A DNA stretch of 49,482 nucleotides from Planotetraspora phitsanulokensis (GTDB taxonomy: Bacteria > Actinomycetota > Actinomycetes > Streptosporangiales > Streptosporangiaceae): the NCBI RefSeq assembly GCF_016863295.1, contig NZ_BOOP01000010.1, forward strand, positions 1 to 49,482. Reading direction: 5' to 3'. Made by a program: the position numbers and the translations under genes. The stretch's first letter is position 1, and every line of letters starts with the position of its first letter. Of this stretch, positions 4,131 through 9,862 are shown piece by piece. The notes beneath the pieces were generated by a model. That model was given only the letters and a program-made list of their open reading frames with translations. It was not told where the DNA came from and did not search any database.

Positions 4131-4727
4131 ATGGAAAGCAAGAGCGGACGGCGTCCCGGATCGCCCCAGACGCGGGAGGCGATCCTCGACGCGGCGGTCG
4201 AGGCCTTCACCGAAGGCGGTTACGCCGCGACGACGATCCGGGCGGTCGCGCGTACGGCCGGCGTCGACCCGGCGCTGGTCATGCACTTCTTCGGCAACAA
4301 GGACGGGCTGTTCGACGCCGCCATCAGGGCGAGCGGCCTGCCCCTGCGCGAGCTGGGCGAGGTCATGGAGGGCGACATCGAGGGGGTCGGCGAGCGGCTG
4401 GTGCGCCGTTATCTCTCACTCTGGGAGAGCCCGGAGCACGGCCCCAAGTTGCGGGCCGTCGTGGGCTCGGCGGCGTCCTCCCCGGCGGCGGCCGTGATGC
4501 TCAAGGAGTTCATCACCAGCGAGGTGCTTCAGCCGCTCGCCAAACAACTCGGGGTCGACCGGGCGGAGACCCGGGGAATCCTCGCCGGATCCCATCTGAT
4601 CGGAATCGCCTTCACCCGCTATGTACTGAACATCGGACCGGTCGCCTCGCTCGACAGCGAGCAACTCGTGGCCTGCGTCGCCCCGGCCGTCCAGCGTTAT
4701 CTCACCGGCGATCTACCTTTTGCTTAG
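4131..4727 (+). CDS. TetR family transcriptional regulator
   Basis: A 198-residue TetR regulator. Residues about 14-58 form the DNA-binding domain: TREAILDAAVEAFTEGGY, TIRAVARTAGVDPALV (helix-turn-helix) and MHFFGNKDGLFDAAI. The C-terminal helical part is the ligand and dimer domain; its ligand is unknown. The start ATG (4131) has no clear ribosome binding site and lies eight bases after the last operator half site, so a leaderless message is possible. Divergent orientation suggests that it represses itself and the YhgE-like gene. Confidence 0.92.
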   Translation: MESKSGRRPGSPQTREAILDAAVEAFTEGGYAATTIRAVARTAGVDPALVMHFFGNKDGLFDAAIRASGLPLRELGEVMEGDIEGVGERLVRRYLSLWESPEHGPKLRAVVGSAASSPAAAVMLKEFITSEVLQPLAKQLGVDRAETRGILAGSHLIGIAFTRYVLNIGPVASLDSEQLVACVAPAVQRYLTGDLPFA

Positions 4728-4765
4728 CGCGTATAGGGTGTGGTCACACCGTCTTTGGAGATCAC

Positions 4766-5344
4766 ATGGATATTTCACAACTCCAGGCGCAGAGTCGGCT
4801 CATCCTGCGTCAGAAGATCACCATGATGGTGAACAGGTACGTCGTCCACGTCGCCGAGCCCGACGGGTCCGAAGGTCCGATCGTGGCGTTCGCCGAGCAG
4901 AAGCGGATGGCGCTCAAGGAGCAGGTCACCCTGTTCACGGACGAGTCGCGGCAGCAGGCGCTCGCCGGATTCAAGGCCCGCAAGGTCATGGACCTCGCCG
5001 GTGAGTACGACGTCACCGACGGCACCGGAGCGGAGATCGGCTCGTTCCGGAAGGACTTCGCCAAGTCGCTGCTGCGCTCGACGTGGCACGTCCAGCAGCA
5101 CGGCCTGCCGACGATGACCGGCCAGGAGCGTCGCCTCGTCGTGGCTCTGCTGCGCCGGTTCGCCGACTCCCTGTCATGGTTGCCGTACCACTTCGACTTC
5201 AGCGTCGGCGCCTCGATCGTCTTCTCGGTGAACCGCCAGTGGGGGCTGCGCGACCGGTACCTCATCGAGATCCACGACCCGCGCATCGACCGGCGTCTGA
5301 TCATCGCGATGGCCGTCGCCCTGGACGCCCTCCAGGCCCGCTGA
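4766..5344 (+). CDS. tubby-like (LURP-one/scramblase-like) domain protein
   Basis: A 192-residue soluble protein. The alternation of short beta-like stretches and the segment MDLAGEYDVTDGTGAEIGSF followed by RKDFAKSLLRSTWHV resemble bacterial LURP-one/phospholipid-scramblase-like proteins of the tubby fold. No signal peptide, membrane anchor or catalytic motif is visible. The start ATG (4766) has GGAG seven bases upstream; the frame is open much further 5', but that part overlaps the TetR gene in another frame. It lies 38 bases after the TetR gene and may be cotranscribed. The function is not known. Confidence 0.75.
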   Translation: MDISQLQAQSRLILRQKITMMVNRYVVHVAEPDGSEGPIVAFAEQKRMALKEQVTLFTDESRQQALAGFKARKVMDLAGEYDVTDGTGAEIGSFRKDFAKSLLRSTWHVQQHGLPTMTGQERRLVVALLRRFADSLSWLPYHFDFSVGASIVFSVNRQWGLRDRYLIEIHDPRIDRRLIIAMAVALDALQAR

Positions 5345-5476
5345 CCCGAATTCGACGGCGCGGCCCGGGAATCCCCGGACCGAATGCCGTGTTATCTTGA
5401 CCATAGGTCGCATGGTTCTGGCCTGATCTCAGGCACATGCACCTGGTTTTTCTCTTCACCACCCCGCCCCTCGGGC

Positions 5477-5592
5477 GTGATCATGCAGAAGTTCGCGATC
5501 ATACGGGTCGACCTGCGCTTTCCCACATCGTGATCATGCGCAAGTTCTTCTGTTCCTCGTGTGACCTGCCGTTTCTCCTTGCGTGATCATGC
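5477..5592 (+). repeat. 53-bp-phased repeats with core GTGATCATGC
   Basis: The core GTGATCATGC begins at 5477, 5530 and 5583, exactly 53 bases apart. The first two units also share AAGTTC just after the core and GACCTGC-TTT-CC toward the end; the third keeps mainly the core and runs into unrelated sequence. The array lies in the 425-base leader region (5345-5769) before the Rho-like gene. Nothing else was recognised in that gap except a weaker ACCTG/TTTTT block near 5440. Confidence 0.8.
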
Positions 5593-5769
5593 ACGAGAGG
5601 GCGGGCGCGGCATGCCGCCGGCGTCCTCCGCCGTACGGCGACGCCGACCACGTCCCAGAGCCGCGGATGCCATCGCCCGCTACGGGTGAGCGCCCACCGA
5701 CGGACGGACTCAAGCTCCGGACCGATTCGAGCGCCATCCGCACGAACCCCCCGAGACAAGGAATCCACC

Positions 5770-6957
5770 ATGACGACTACAGACACCATCCCGCGGACCG
5801 CGCACAGAACCAGATCCAGGAACGGATCCAGGACCGCGGCCAAGACCTCCGGCGTGAACGGGGCGGCCCGTGCGCCGCGACCCGCCGCCGAACCCACGAC
5901 CGTCAGCGGCCTGTTCGACGGCGCCGCCAAGAACGCCGTCATCCGCGGCGGCGGCTACCTCCCCGGGCCGAAGGACGTCTCCGTACCGCCCGCGCTGGTC
6001 CGCGACCACGGGCTCCGCACCGGAGACGTCGTCGACGGCACCGCCCAGAACGGCAGGCTGATCAGCGTCGAGACGGTGAACGGCCTGCCGCCCGGCGCAC
6101 CGCGGCCGGACTTCGCCGACCTGGTCCCCATTCACCCCACCGAGCGGCTCCGTCTCGAAACCGGCCCCGCCGTCCTCGCCACCCGCGTCATCGACCTGCT
6201 GGCACCGATCGGCAAGGGACAACGCGGCCTGATCGTCGCCCCGCCGAAGGCCGGCAAGACCATGCTCCTCCAGGCGGTCGCGAACGCGATCACCACCAAC
6301 CACCCCGAGTGCCACCTCATGATCGTCCTCGTCGACGAGCGGCCCGAGGAGGTCACGGACATGCGGGAGTCCGTCCAGGCGGAGGTCATCGCCTCCACCT
6401 TCGACCGTCCCGCGACAGACCACATCGCCGTCACCGAGCTCGCGGTCGAGCGGGCCAAGCGGCTCGTCGAGCTGGGGCACGACGTCGTCATGCTCATCGA
6501 CTCGATCACCCGGCTCGGCCGGGCGTACAACATGACGGCGCCCAGCGGCGGGCGCATCCTGACCGGCGGCATCGACGTCCGGGCCGTCCACCCGCCCAAG
6601 CGCGTACTGGGGGCCGCGCGCAACCTTCAGGGCGCGGGCTCGCTCACCATCCTGGCGGCCGCCCTGGTCGAGACCGGCTCGAAGATGGACGACAACCTCT
6701 TCGAGGAGTTCAAGAGCACCGGCAACATGGAGCTGCGGCTCAGCCGGAGCCTGTCCGAGAAGCGGGTCTTCCCCGCCGTCGACGTCACCGGGTCGGGCAC
6801 CCGCCGGGAGGAACTCCTGGTCGACCCGGCCGAGCTGCCCCTCCTGTGGAAGTTGCGGAGGGCGCTGCACGACCAGGGCACGGTCGAGCCGTTCCTCGCG
6901 ACGCTGAAGGGCACCGGCTCGAACGCGGAGCTGCTCCTCTCACTCCGGAACGCGTGA
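5770..6957 (+). CDS. short Rho-like transcription termination ATPase
   Basis: The 395-residue protein has the Rho hexamer ATPase core: APPKAGKTM (Walker A, 157-165), DERPEEVTDM, MLIDSITRLGRAYN (Walker B), LTGGID (Q-loop, about 264), and GTGNMELRLSR-EKRVFPA with the arginine finger region. The N-terminus is only a 40-residue Ser/Thr/Arg-rich tail and a reduced OB-type domain (VSGLFDG to GLRTGDVVDG). The usual N-terminal helical Rho domain and the actinobacterial insertion are missing, and the aromatic RNA-contact motif GFGFLR is replaced by KNAVIR. It is thus probably a second, divergent Rho rather than the housekeeping one; its RNA targets are unknown. ATG 5770 was chosen because homology begins soon after and no closer start exists. 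Confidence 0.88.
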   Translation: MTTTDTIPRTAHRTRSRNGSRTAAKTSGVNGAARAPRPAAEPTTVSGLFDGAAKNAVIRGGGYLPGPKDVSVPPALVRDHGLRTGDVVDGTAQNGRLISVETVNGLPPGAPRPDFADLVPIHPTERLRLETGPAVLATRVIDLLAPIGKGQRGLIVAPPKAGKTMLLQAVANAITTNHPECHLMIVLVDERPEEVTDMRESVQAEVIASTFDRPATDHIAVTELAVERAKRLVELGHDVVMLIDSITRLGRAYNMTAPSGGRILTGGIDVRAVHPPKRVLGAARNLQGAGSLTILAAALVETGSKMDDNLFEEFKSTGNMELRLSRSLSEKRVFPAVDVTGSGTRREELLVDPAELPLLWKLRRALHDQGTVEPFLATLKGTGSNAELLLSLRNA

Positions 6958-6996
6958 CGCCCGGGCGTCCGCGTGTGAGAACCGTACGAACCAGGC

Positions 6997-7284
6997 ATGA
7001 TCACACGCATGAGCCAGTGGCGTGTCCTCATCGAGGAGAACATCGGCGGCGCCGACCACAAGGAGTGGCGGATCTCCGACATCTACGAGGTCGAGGGTGA
7101 GCGCGAAGAGGCCCGGGCGATCGCCCACGAGCTCGCGATGGCGCACTCGCCCAAACACCCTGCGCTTCCGCAGGAGAGGGCCGTCTACCGGATCAATGAG
7201 GACATGTGGCTGACGATGGTCATGGGCGTCAGAACCCGGTACCACTACCGCGTCACCGTAGCCGAGCTGATCTTCCGCGGCTGA
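6997..7284 (+). CDS. small hypothetical protein downstream of the Rho-like gene
   Basis: A 95-residue acidic, soluble protein with the conserved-looking core MSQWRVLIEEN, GEREEARAIAHELAMAHSP and YRVTVAEL. It resembles a family of short actinomycete hypothetical proteins; no function is known. It starts at ATG 6997, or at the second ATG (7009, MSQWRVL) which looks more like the family start. The first ATG lies inside a copy of the decamer GCATGATCAC (6995-7004), the inverted form of the repeat core seen upstream of the Rho-like gene. The 39-base gap suggests cotranscription with that gene. Confidence 0.75.
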   Translation: MITRMSQWRVLIEENIGGADHKEWRISDIYEVEGEREEARAIAHELAMAHSPKHPALPQERAVYRINEDMWLTMVMGVRTRYHYRVTVAELIFRG

Positions 7285-7301
7285 CTCCCACCCCCAGGTG
7301 C

Positions 7302-7364
7302 CGTGATCATGCACAGGGGTGGGGCCGGTCGACACACCGACCCCCGAACCTGTGCATGATCACG
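7302..7364. terminator. perfect 16-bp inverted repeat, bidirectional terminator candidate
   Basis: CGTGATCATGCACAGG (7302-7317) and its exact reverse complement (7349-7364) enclose a second small hairpin GGTCG/CGACC. It sits between the convergent ends of the 95-aa gene (7284) and the ALDH-like gene (7377), the classical place for a bidirectional terminator. Each arm contains the GTGATCATGC core of the local repeat family. Confidence 0.75.
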
Positions 7365-7376
7365 CCACAAGCGTCA

Positions 7377-8243
7377 TCAGGTGCCGATCGGGTGCCAGAC
7401 GGTCTTCGTCTCAAGGAAGGCCGTCATTCGCTCGGTACCGGGGTCGGCCAGCCAGTCGACCTTGGCGGACGGCGGGCGCAGGACGCGCTTGAGGTTCTCC
7501 GCCGCCGCCTCCTCACACGTGACCGCCAACTCCGCGTCGGCGCCGGTCAGGTCGATGGCGTTGACGTCCATGTGTCCCGCCAGCCAGGGCGCGATCTCGG
7601 CTGCCGAGCCCGTGAGGATGTTGACCACCCCTCCAGGCAGGTCCGACGTGGCCAGCACCTCGGCCAGCGTGATCGACGGCAGCGGCGCCCGCTCCGACGC
7701 GACCACCACACAGGTGTTGCCCGTGACGATCACCGGTGCGATCACGCTGACCAGCCCGAGCAGCGGCCCGGCCTCGGGGGCCACGACGGCGACCACACCG
7801 GTCGGCTCGGTGCTGGACAGGTTGAAGTACGGCCCGGCGACCGGGTTGGCCGATCCGCGGATCGCGCCGATCTTGTCCGACCAGCCCGCGTACCACACGA
7901 GCCTGTCCACGGCGGCGTCCACCAGCTCGCCTGCCTTGCGCACGCCCACGCCGTCGGCGTCGACGAGCTCGGCCACGAACTGGCTGCGACGTCCCTCCAG
8001 CATCTCCGCGACGCGATAGAGGATCTGGCCGCGGTTGTACGCGGTCGCGGCCGACCAGCCGGGGAAGGCCTTCCGCGCGGCGGCCACCGCCTCCCTGGCG
8101 TCCTTACGAGATGCCTTGGACGCGTTCGCCAGGAACTCGCCCTTCGAGGAGTTCACGACATACGACCTTCCGCTTTCCGACCGGGGGAAAGCGCCACCGA
8201 TGAACAGCTTGTACGTCTTGCGCACGGCCAGGCGCTCACTCAT
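7377..8243 (-). CDS. half-length aldehyde dehydrogenase-like protein
   Basis: A 288-residue ALDH-superfamily protein: YKLFIGGAFPRSESGRSYVV start, coenzyme-domain segments TGVVAVVAPEAGPLLGL and NTCVVVASERAPLPS, and GGVVNILTG. Full enzymes are about 480 residues; here the protein stops shortly after TCEEAAAENLKRVL, and the region with the catalytic Cys and the second half of the catalytic domain is absent. It should therefore not be an active dehydrogenase alone. ATG 8243 was chosen at the usual ALDH start; 191 non-coding bases separate it from the upstream full ALDH. The close pairing suggests that it is a partner subunit, like the inactive second ALDH domain of ALDH16 proteins (inference). 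Confidence 0.85.
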   Translation of the reverse strand: MSERLAVRKTYKLFIGGAFPRSESGRSYVVNSSKGEFLANASKASRKDAREAVAAARKAFPGWSAATAYNRGQILYRVAEMLEGRRSQFVAELVDADGVGVRKAGELVDAAVDRLVWYAGWSDKIGAIRGSANPVAGPYFNLSSTEPTGVVAVVAPEAGPLLGLVSVIAPVIVTGNTCVVVASERAPLPSITLAEVLATSDLPGGVVNILTGSAAEIAPWLAGHMDVNAIDLTGADAELAVTCEEAAAENLKRVLRPPSAKVDWLADPGTERMTAFLETKTVWHPIGT

Positions 8244-8434
8244 CGAAGGATCCAATCTGGAGTGGACGGGCCGGCTGGTAGGTCTGGCCGCATCGGCATA
8301 CGCCGCCCCGGTGAGCGAACCAGCCATGCCGTACGGCGAAGCGGGAGGAACGGAGCGCACGGGAGTAGCCCTCACCCGCGCCCGCGTTCATGCGGCGCAC
8401 GAGACGGCGGCGCCGGCGGTCGTCACACAAGTCG

Positions 8435-9862
8435 TCACACCGCAAGGTAGGCCTCCAGACCGTGACGCCCGCCCTCGCGGCCGTAGCCGGACTCCTTGTA
8501 GCCGCCGAACGGCGACGTGGGGTCGAACTTGTTGAACGTGTTGGACCAGACGACGCCGGCCCGGAGCCGGGACGCCATCCACAACATCAGCGATCCCTTC
8601 TCGGTCCAGACGCCGGCCGACAGGCCGTACGGCGTGTTGTTGGCCTTCTCGACCGCCTCGGCCGGGGTACGGAACGTCAGCACGGACAGCACCGGGCCGA
8701 AGATCTCCTCCCGGGCGATGCGGTGCGACTGGGCGACCCCGGTGAAGACGGTCGGCGGGAACCAGAAGCCCTTGTCGGGGATCGGGCACGCCGGCGACCA
8801 CCGCTCGGCCCCCTCGGCCTCGCCGGCGTCCGACAGCTCCCGGATCTTGGCGAGCTGGGCGGCCGAGTTGATCGCGCCGATGTCGGTGTTCTTGTCCAGC
8901 GGGTCGCCGAGCCTGAGCGTGGACAGCCGCCGCTTGAGCGCGTCGAGCAACTCCTCGGCGACCGACTCCTGAACCAGCAGGCGCGAGCCCGCGCAGCAGA
9001 CGTGACCCTGGTTGAAGAAGATCCCGTTGACGATGCCCTCGACCGCCTGGTCCAGCGCCGCGTCCTCGAAGACGATGTTCGCGGCCTTGCCGCCGAGCTC
9101 CAGTGTGACCTTCTTGCGCGACCCGGCGACCGATCGCGCGATCAGGCGGCCGACCTCCGTCGAGCCGGTGAAGGCCACCTTGTCGACGTCGGGGTGGGCG
9201 ACAACCGCCGCGCCCGTCGAACCCGCGCCCGTCACGATGTTCACCACGCCGGGAGGCAGGTCGGCCTGCCGGCAGATCTCCGCGAAGGCCAGCGCCGTGA
9301 GGGGCGTGGTCTCGGCGGGCTTGAGGACGACCGTGTTGCCGCACGCGAGCGCGGGCGCGACCTTCCACGCCAGCATGAGCAGCGGGAAGTTCCACGGGAT
9401 GACCTGCCCCGCCACGCCGAGCGGCTGAGGCGAGGGGCCGAACCCGGCGTAGGACAGCTTGTCCGCCCACCCGGCGTAGTAGAAGAAGTGGGCCGCGACC
9501 AGCGGCAGGTCCACGTCACGCGACTCGCGGATCGGCTTGCCGTTGTCGAGGGACTCCAGGACGGCGAGCTCGCGGGCCCGCTCCTGGATGATCCTGGCGA
9601 TGCGGAAGATGTACTTGGCCCGCTCGGAGCCCGGCATGGCCGACCACACGGTGAAGGCCTTGCGTGCGGCCTGGACCGCGCGGTCGACGTCGGCCTCCCC
9701 CGCCACGGCGACCTCCGCGAGCACCTCCTCGCTGGCCGGGTTGACCGTCTTGTCCCGCCCCTCGCCGAGGGGCTCGACCCACTCGCCGTTGATGAACAGG
9801 CCGTACGACGGCTTGATGTCGACGATGTCCCGCGACTCTGGCGCGGGTGCGTACTCGAACAT
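8435..9862 (-). CDS. aldehyde dehydrogenase (NAD(P)+)
   Basis: A full-length 475-residue ALDH. Visible hallmarks are IPWNFPLLMLAWK and LKPAETTPLTALAF (cofactor binding), FTGSTEVGR, the general base Glu in LELGGKAANIVF, the catalytic Cys in GHVCCAGSR, and EIFGPVLSV plus PFGGYKESGYGREGG at the end. It follows deoC after 12 bases on the same strand, so the operon probably degrades deoxyribose 5-phosphate: DeoC releases acetaldehyde, and this enzyme may oxidise it to acetate. The substrate is an inference from context. The direct repeat GTCGTCACAC (8419 and 8431) overlaps the stop region. Confidence 0.93.
   Translation of the reverse strand: MFEYAPAPESRDIVDIKPSYGLFINGEWVEPLGEGRDKTVNPASEEVLAEVAVAGEADVDRAVQAARKAFTVWSAMPGSERAKYIFRIARIIQERARELAVLESLDNGKPIRESRDVDLPLVAAHFFYYAGWADKLSYAGFGPSPQPLGVAGQVIPWNFPLLMLAWKVAPALACGNTVVLKPAETTPLTALAFAEICRQADLPPGVVNIVTGAGSTGAAVVAHPDVDKVAFTGSTEVGRLIARSVAGSRKKVTLELGGKAANIVFEDAALDQAVEGIVNGIFFNQGHVCCAGSRLLVQESVAEELLDALKRRLSTLRLGDPLDKNTDIGAINSAAQLAKIRELSDAGEAEGAERWSPACPIPDKGFWFPPTVFTGVAQSHRIAREEIFGPVLSVLTFRTPAEAVEKANNTPYGLSAGVWTEKGSLMLWMASRLRAGVVWSNTFNKFDPTSPFGGYKESGYGREGGRHGLEAYLAV

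Follow-up and report, generated by a model that had tools for sequence, protein, structure and literature searches.

A second Rho of the short form in Planotetraspora phitsanulokensis: intact motor residues, eroded primary RNA site

The window, a stretch of 49,482 nucleotides (contig C10, NZ_BOOP01000010.1) from the 9.17-Mb genome of the soil bacterium Planotetraspora phitsanulokensis, encodes a Rho protein that begins almost directly with its RNA-binding domain. The locus raises the question of whether this gene, here called rho2, is the Rho of the organism or an additional one, whether its product can still be a motor, and how such a motor would hold RNA.

The rho2 gene and its full-length counterpart

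A first-pass annotation took rho2 to be a second Rho, and a search of the genome bears this out. A full-length rho (rho1) with an open frame of 669 codons is also present (match G000:C15:81569-83452, 667 bits, above the TIGR00767 cut-off), so rho2 is not the only rho in the genome. There is a third, weak rho match (38.9 bits) on C15, approximately 15 kb away from the full-length gene. The rho2 protein itself reaches 470 bits on TIGR00767, under the curated cut-off of 509.45, and 458 bits on NF006886, over the cut-off of 315. The features of the gene are as follows (E. coli Rho numbering is used for all residue positions in the Rho alignment).

5758–5762, + strand: Shine-Dalgarno sequence AAGGA of rho2, read in the sequence, ending 7 bases before the ATG
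5770–6957, + strand: rho2, short-form Rho, 395 aa, start ATG (open reading frame, Pfam, NCBIfam)
5770–5901, + strand: N-terminal tail, 44 aa, net +6, residues 1–35 predicted disordered
5902–6120, + strand: OB-fold (primary RNA site) domain, right end placed by eye
5929–5946, + strand: KNAVIR at the place of E. coli GFGFLR (alignment; 62 is N, 64 is V, Arg66 kept)
6238–6261, + strand: Walker A, APPKAGKT (alignment)
6337–6339, + strand: catalytic Glu, E. coli 211 (alignment)
6499–6501, + strand: Walker B Asp, E. coli 265 (alignment)
6715–6717, + strand: Ser at E. coli Gly337 (sequence and alignment)
6802–6804, + strand: arginine finger, E. coli 366 (alignment)

An AAGGA-type site and a similar protein length recur at the rho2 starts of relatives. 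In the rho2 protein Pfam identifies two domains, the Rho RNA-binding OB domain at 36.8 bits and the ATP-synthase-type motor at 86.5 bits, and no N-terminal Rho domain. The 44-aa tail occupies the place of the N-terminal domain and insertion of full-length Rho; in the long Rho of the same genome approximately 296 residues precede the core, and these are absent from rho2 or replaced by the 44. Past residue 60, this pre-core stretch is 19% Arg and 2% Asn and is thus Arg-rich but not Asn-rich. The earlier description of a missing N-terminal domain and a missing Arg/Asn-rich insertion is therefore right about both absences and about arginine, but not about asparagine: the predicted protein keeps a short basic tail and has neither the N-terminal domain nor the Arg-rich insertion.

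The motor of rho2 is 70% identical to that of its own long Rho, the OB domain 41% (68 positions). In an AlphaFold2 model (37 sequences, mean pLDDT 86.3) the OB domain and the motor are confident and tail residues 1–35 have low confidence. The model superimposes on solved Rho chains with an r.m.s.d. of about 1.5–2.4 (50 matches listed); the best chain among the matches listed is M. tuberculosis Rho (TM 0.86, r.m.s.d. 1.5). Rho2 thus shares the motor residues, the fold and the OB domain with canonical Rho (TIGR00767; E. coli, M. tuberculosis) but differs from it in lacking the N-terminal domain, the insertion and the aromatic primary site, and in scoring below the TIGR00767 cut-off.

A short second Rho is not new as a class, as there is an NCBIfam name for it and rho duplicates are mentioned in the literature. 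The best NCBIfam match of rho2 is NF041509 [paralog_Rho2, ‘transcription termination factor Rho, short form’; residues 45–391 on model positions 1–359 of 360], a family that resembles rho2 in its short N-terminus and in having a full Rho alongside. However, the score of rho2 (492.4 bits) falls short of the curated family cut-off of 628, which only a Kutzneria short Rho (643) passed among ten proteins scanned (nine short Rhos and the own long Rho). Statements in PMC8269248 say that Actinobacteria frequently have rho duplicates and that one duplicate of Streptomyces lividans is altered in its bicyclomycin-binding and RNA-binding regions. Set beside rho2 by this description (an actinomycete protein with the same two regions altered), the S. 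lividans duplicate likely belongs to the same group. Our literature searches found no functional study of any short Rho.

Motor residues and primary RNA site across short Rhos

The first-pass annotation had stated that the ATPase core retains all Rho motifs, and the alignment agrees, with Walker A, the catalytic Glu, Walker B and the arginine finger all present. K184, T185, E211, D265, R366, G287, G288 and K326, the core of the Walker motifs, the catalytic Glu, the finger and the Q- and R-loops, are found in the window's protein. Across 115 distinct short Rhos K184, T185, E211, R212, D265, R269, K336, R366, G287 and G288 are invariant and R353 is kept in 114; of 157 motor positions at which long Rhos and E. 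coli Rho are conserved, 48 are also invariant in all 115. The R-loop residue Lys326 is kept in rho2; 86 of the 115 short Rhos have another residue there (Arg in 64), and the position varies among long Rhos too. By alignment, rho2 keeps the catalytic and intersubunit residues examined.

E334, K336, R366 and R353, which face the neighbouring subunit, are relevant to the idea that rho2 acts as a modulator whose subunits enter Rho1 hexamers and alter their grip on RNA. The first three are identical in 115/115 short and 27/27 long Rhos and R353 is the same in 114/115 and 27/27, which agrees with mixed rings. The catalytic residues of the motor are retained as well, however, and a mere modulator would not need them; we regard mixed rings as unlikely.

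The primary RNA site is altered in rho2, as the first-pass annotation had noticed: G61-F62-G63-F64-L65-R66 of E. coli is aligned with K-N-A-V-I-R. All 27 long Rhos have aromatic residues at each of positions 62, 64, 80 and 110, where rho2 has N, V, S and a gap, so that the predicted protein is without the stacking residues of the primary site and of the 5′-base pocket. At position 62, all 27 long Rhos have Tyr and none of the 115 short ones has an aromatic residue; at position 64, the long Rhos again agree (Phe in 27/27), and 53/115 short ones are aromatic (Phe in 44 of these). Among the 115 short Rhos, 62 have a gap at position 108, 60 at 109 and 50 at 110. Two further residues of the site, R66 (113/115) and D78 (115/115), are retained, and some base contact may therefore remain, or both may be structural.

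The loss is most complete around the window's own protein. In its subclade (33 short Rhos taken from the 143-row tree described below, the others numbering 82), 31/33 proteins have no aromatic at 62, 64, 80 or 110, vs 23/82 of the other short Rhos, nine of which (9/82) have at least three of the four. Given these nine and the aromatic 64 in 53/115, loss of the pocket is a tendency among the short Rhos, not a rule for their whole clade. The tail is net positive in 33/33 members of the subclade vs 26/78 other short Rhos; Ser at 337 is found in 33/33, and in 27 of the other 82. In the short Rhos of Acrocarpospora and Herbidospora (L146, L147, L153, L155, L156, L158) the RNP1 segment of the primary site is partly deleted and shortened.

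Distribution, descent and surroundings of rho2

Both a short and a full-length Rho are found in 5/5 genomes of the genus, and the closest named relatives of the rho2 protein are from Planotetraspora species (Streptosporangiaceae). In a sample of 246 genomes of the class, two rho matches occur in 9/22 genomes of the own family, in 12/21 Streptomycetaceae and in 3/203 others; the second match is short in the three Streptomycetaceae genomes for which the sequence was retrieved. At least two rho matches (E 1e-60 or better) are present in 182/297 genomes of the family, although some second matches may be fragments. Of the best 80 of 262 named loci, called short or long from the scored start or the open frame, 78 encode short Rhos of about 350–443 aa and two are full-length Arsenicicoccus Rhos; the short Rhos among these 80 come from Streptosporangiaceae, Thermomonosporaceae, Streptomycetaceae, Catenulispora, Actinospica, Pseudonocardiaceae, Micromonosporaceae and Nocardiaceae.

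Over 350 core codons, dN/dS is 0.04–0.27 for rho2 and 0–0.09 for rho1 (15 pairs each, drawn from the five genus genomes and G062). The rho2 gene is under purifying selection, looser than that on rho1, and evolves faster; these values reject pseudogene status. The eroded primary site and the faster evolution might also be read as those of a decaying duplicate with no remaining role, but dN/dS far below 1, the 48 invariant motor positions in 115 sequences and the presence of rho2 in all five genus genomes and in many genera largely refute this reading, to which we attach very little probability. The analysis confirms that rho2 is real and conserved, a second Rho of the short form whose motor residues are intact and whose primary RNA site is eroded.

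In a 90-row tree built on the motor (65 short Rhos, 25 long Rhos), 64/65 short Rhos lie on one side of a branch with support 96/96, and a single clade of all 65 is not rejected (p-AU 0.268). In this tree the short Rho L110 (G350, f6 g74) sits on a long branch beside the long Rho of its own genome and may stem from a duplication of its own; a broader, quickly built tree (143 rows: 115 short Rhos, 27 long Rhos and E. coli) puts it among other short Rhos. In that broader tree the short Rhos are not all held separate: a long Rho from f6 is nested among them, and the deepest branching order and many deep forks are left open, which leaves a single origin across all actinomycetes unsettled. A separate Rho clade with a constant neighbour, which the first-pass annotation suggested looking for, finds support in the smaller tree for the clade, tempered by the mixing in the larger one, and fails on the neighbour, which is irregular. 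The surroundings of rho2 contain the following features.

4131–4727: TetR regulator, upstream of rho2 (Pfam)
4766–5344: 192-aa protein, upstream of rho2, no Pfam match
5477–5592, + strand: GTGATCATGC repeat array upstream of rho2, three copies spaced 53 bp apart
6995–7004, − strand: one GTGATCATGC copy where the 95-aa gene begins
6997–7284, + strand: 95-aa protein of no named family, a loosely linked neighbour of rho2
7303–7363, no strand assigned: inverted repeat pair (7303/7354) between convergent genes, forming a strong hairpin

The 95-aa protein had been suggested as a partner that recruits rho2. Its gene adjoins rho2 in the genomes of the genus and in a few relatives, lies kilobases from it in Acrocarpospora and Herbidospora loci, and is found in only 5/41 short-rho neighbourhoods by the cluster call (six with tblastn). 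Homologues, present in 53/297 family genomes, occur also in genomes with one Rho match, for example in genus g46. These counts reject the protein as a regular or obligate partner. It has a predicted order of strand-strand-helix-strand-strand-strand and no match in Pfam, NCBIfam, PHROGs or PADLOC, and a fold search returned nothing at E 0.001 or better. On the opposite strand 3′ of its gene are aldehyde dehydrogenases and a DeoC-like aldolase. Every other gene cluster appears in at most 12 of the 41 neighbourhoods; the gene call behind this count was crude and overlooked the window's 192-aa gene. The neighbours of rho2 vary between lineages and give no functional hint. No known RNA family is found at 4500–8500 of the window. 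A phage or defence origin of rho2 was considered and rejected, PHROGs and PADLOC giving only weak P-loop matches.

All six exact copies of GTGATCATGC in the window lie within 5477–7363. The stretch 7298–7368, which includes the inverted pair, folds at −49.9 kcal/mol (z −5.95), and its hairpin is possibly a two-way terminator; two stretches of the upstream array fold no better than chance. The 11-mer core GTGATCATGCA has 290 copies in the genome vs none for the reversed control. In the other four genus genomes the core 11-mer of this intergenic repeat, which has a 53-bp period and begins GTGATCATGCACaggTTCG, has 739–1083 copies. More than 20 copies are also found in g59, g51, g25, two g48, two of three g50 and four g65 genomes, and at most 14 in the rest of the 297 family genomes. 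Twenty arrays, from the first places listed, have mostly 53-bp spacing and none is inside a predicted gene (crude gene call).

All 16 repeat-rich family genomes (more than 20 copies) have at least two rho matches, vs 182/297 overall, and all seven repeat-rich genera are among the 30/68 with two matches when genus representatives are compared (chance 0.002, ignoring phylogeny and genome size). Among genomes with two rho matches, repeat-rich ones are a minority. The link between repeat and rho2 is an association only, and we give hardly any credence to a rut-independent rho2 whose loading sites would include the 53-bp GTGATCATGC intergenic repeats flanking its own gene.

Possible roles of rho2 and the bicyclomycin question

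The reading that we favour, with some confidence, is that rho2 is a working RNA motor of the short form, able to load although its aromatic pocket is missing, and that it serves as an auxiliary terminator or R-loop remover. Rho2 would form a hexameric, ATP-driven RNA translocase. Its ring would no longer choose C-rich, rut-like sites through a crown of aromatic pockets and would instead load via the basic tail and the inner (secondary) site, perhaps helped by another factor. It would then terminate transcription or remove RNA:DNA hybrids alongside the housekeeping Rho, possibly under conditions that impair the latter.

A rival reading concerns an inhibitor. In E. coli, changes at Gly337, Met219, Ser266 and Asp210 of Rho confer resistance to bicyclomycin, and the serine of rho2 at 337 falls on one of these resistance sites. 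At least one of positions 208, 210, 219, 266, 320 and 337 is non-wild-type in 96/115 short Rhos, mainly through G337S (60), D210G (27) and M219L/I/V (28), whereas none of the six is changed in 26/27 long Rhos, the remaining one having Met at 320. On the 143-row tree, 11 changes are needed at position 337, three at 210 and 19 at 219. In M. tuberculosis Rho, Leu320-to-Met is given as the cause of resistance in a statement in PMC8828861. According to statements in PMC6934819, Streptomyces and most other actinobacteria are not affected by bicyclomycin even though the drug inhibits S. lividans Rho in vitro; export or non-essentiality is offered as the reason, and Micrococcus luteus is named as the exception that is affected.

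These residues make bicyclomycin tolerance of rho2 plausible and suggest a backup that would sustain termination when bicyclomycin-like inhibitors from soil neighbours block the housekeeping Rho. The insensitivity of actinobacteria despite a sensitive S. lividans Rho, and the altered bicyclomycin region of the S. lividans duplicate, would fit such a backup, and the idea of a tolerant duplicate is partly in print in those statements of PMC8269248 and PMC6934819.

Several observations weigh against the backup. Positions 208, 266 and 320 are each wild type in 114/115 short Rhos, and 19/115 are wild type at all six sites. The short Rhos also vary at 109 of the 157 motor positions that are conserved among the long Rhos and E. 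coli Rho, so that changes at the bicyclomycin sites do not stand out, and these changes may instead tune the motor. The resistance effect of the substitutions comes from E. coli work, and a literature search found no paper naming bicyclomycin together with G337S. Since a second match is absent in many actinobacteria, including 9/21 sampled Streptomycetaceae, the backup cannot be a general answer to their insensitivity. On balance, a bicyclomycin-tolerant backup seems to us a possible but rather doubtful role.

Self-resistance of a producer was considered separately and rejected: no cyclodipeptide synthase is found in 5/5 genus genomes, and producer self-protection is thus probably not the case here. 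In the 49 of 449 genomes searched, this enzyme is present in seven (2/26 with two rho matches, 5/23 with one).

If rho2 works as an auxiliary motor, evolution has kept the Rho motor and discarded the RNA-recognition pocket that is regarded as defining rut choice, and the protein could reveal how a Rho ring loads without rut recognition. If rho2 does resist bicyclomycin, it would help to explain why some actinomycetes tolerate the drug though it inhibits, in vitro, the only Streptomyces Rho on which it has been tried.
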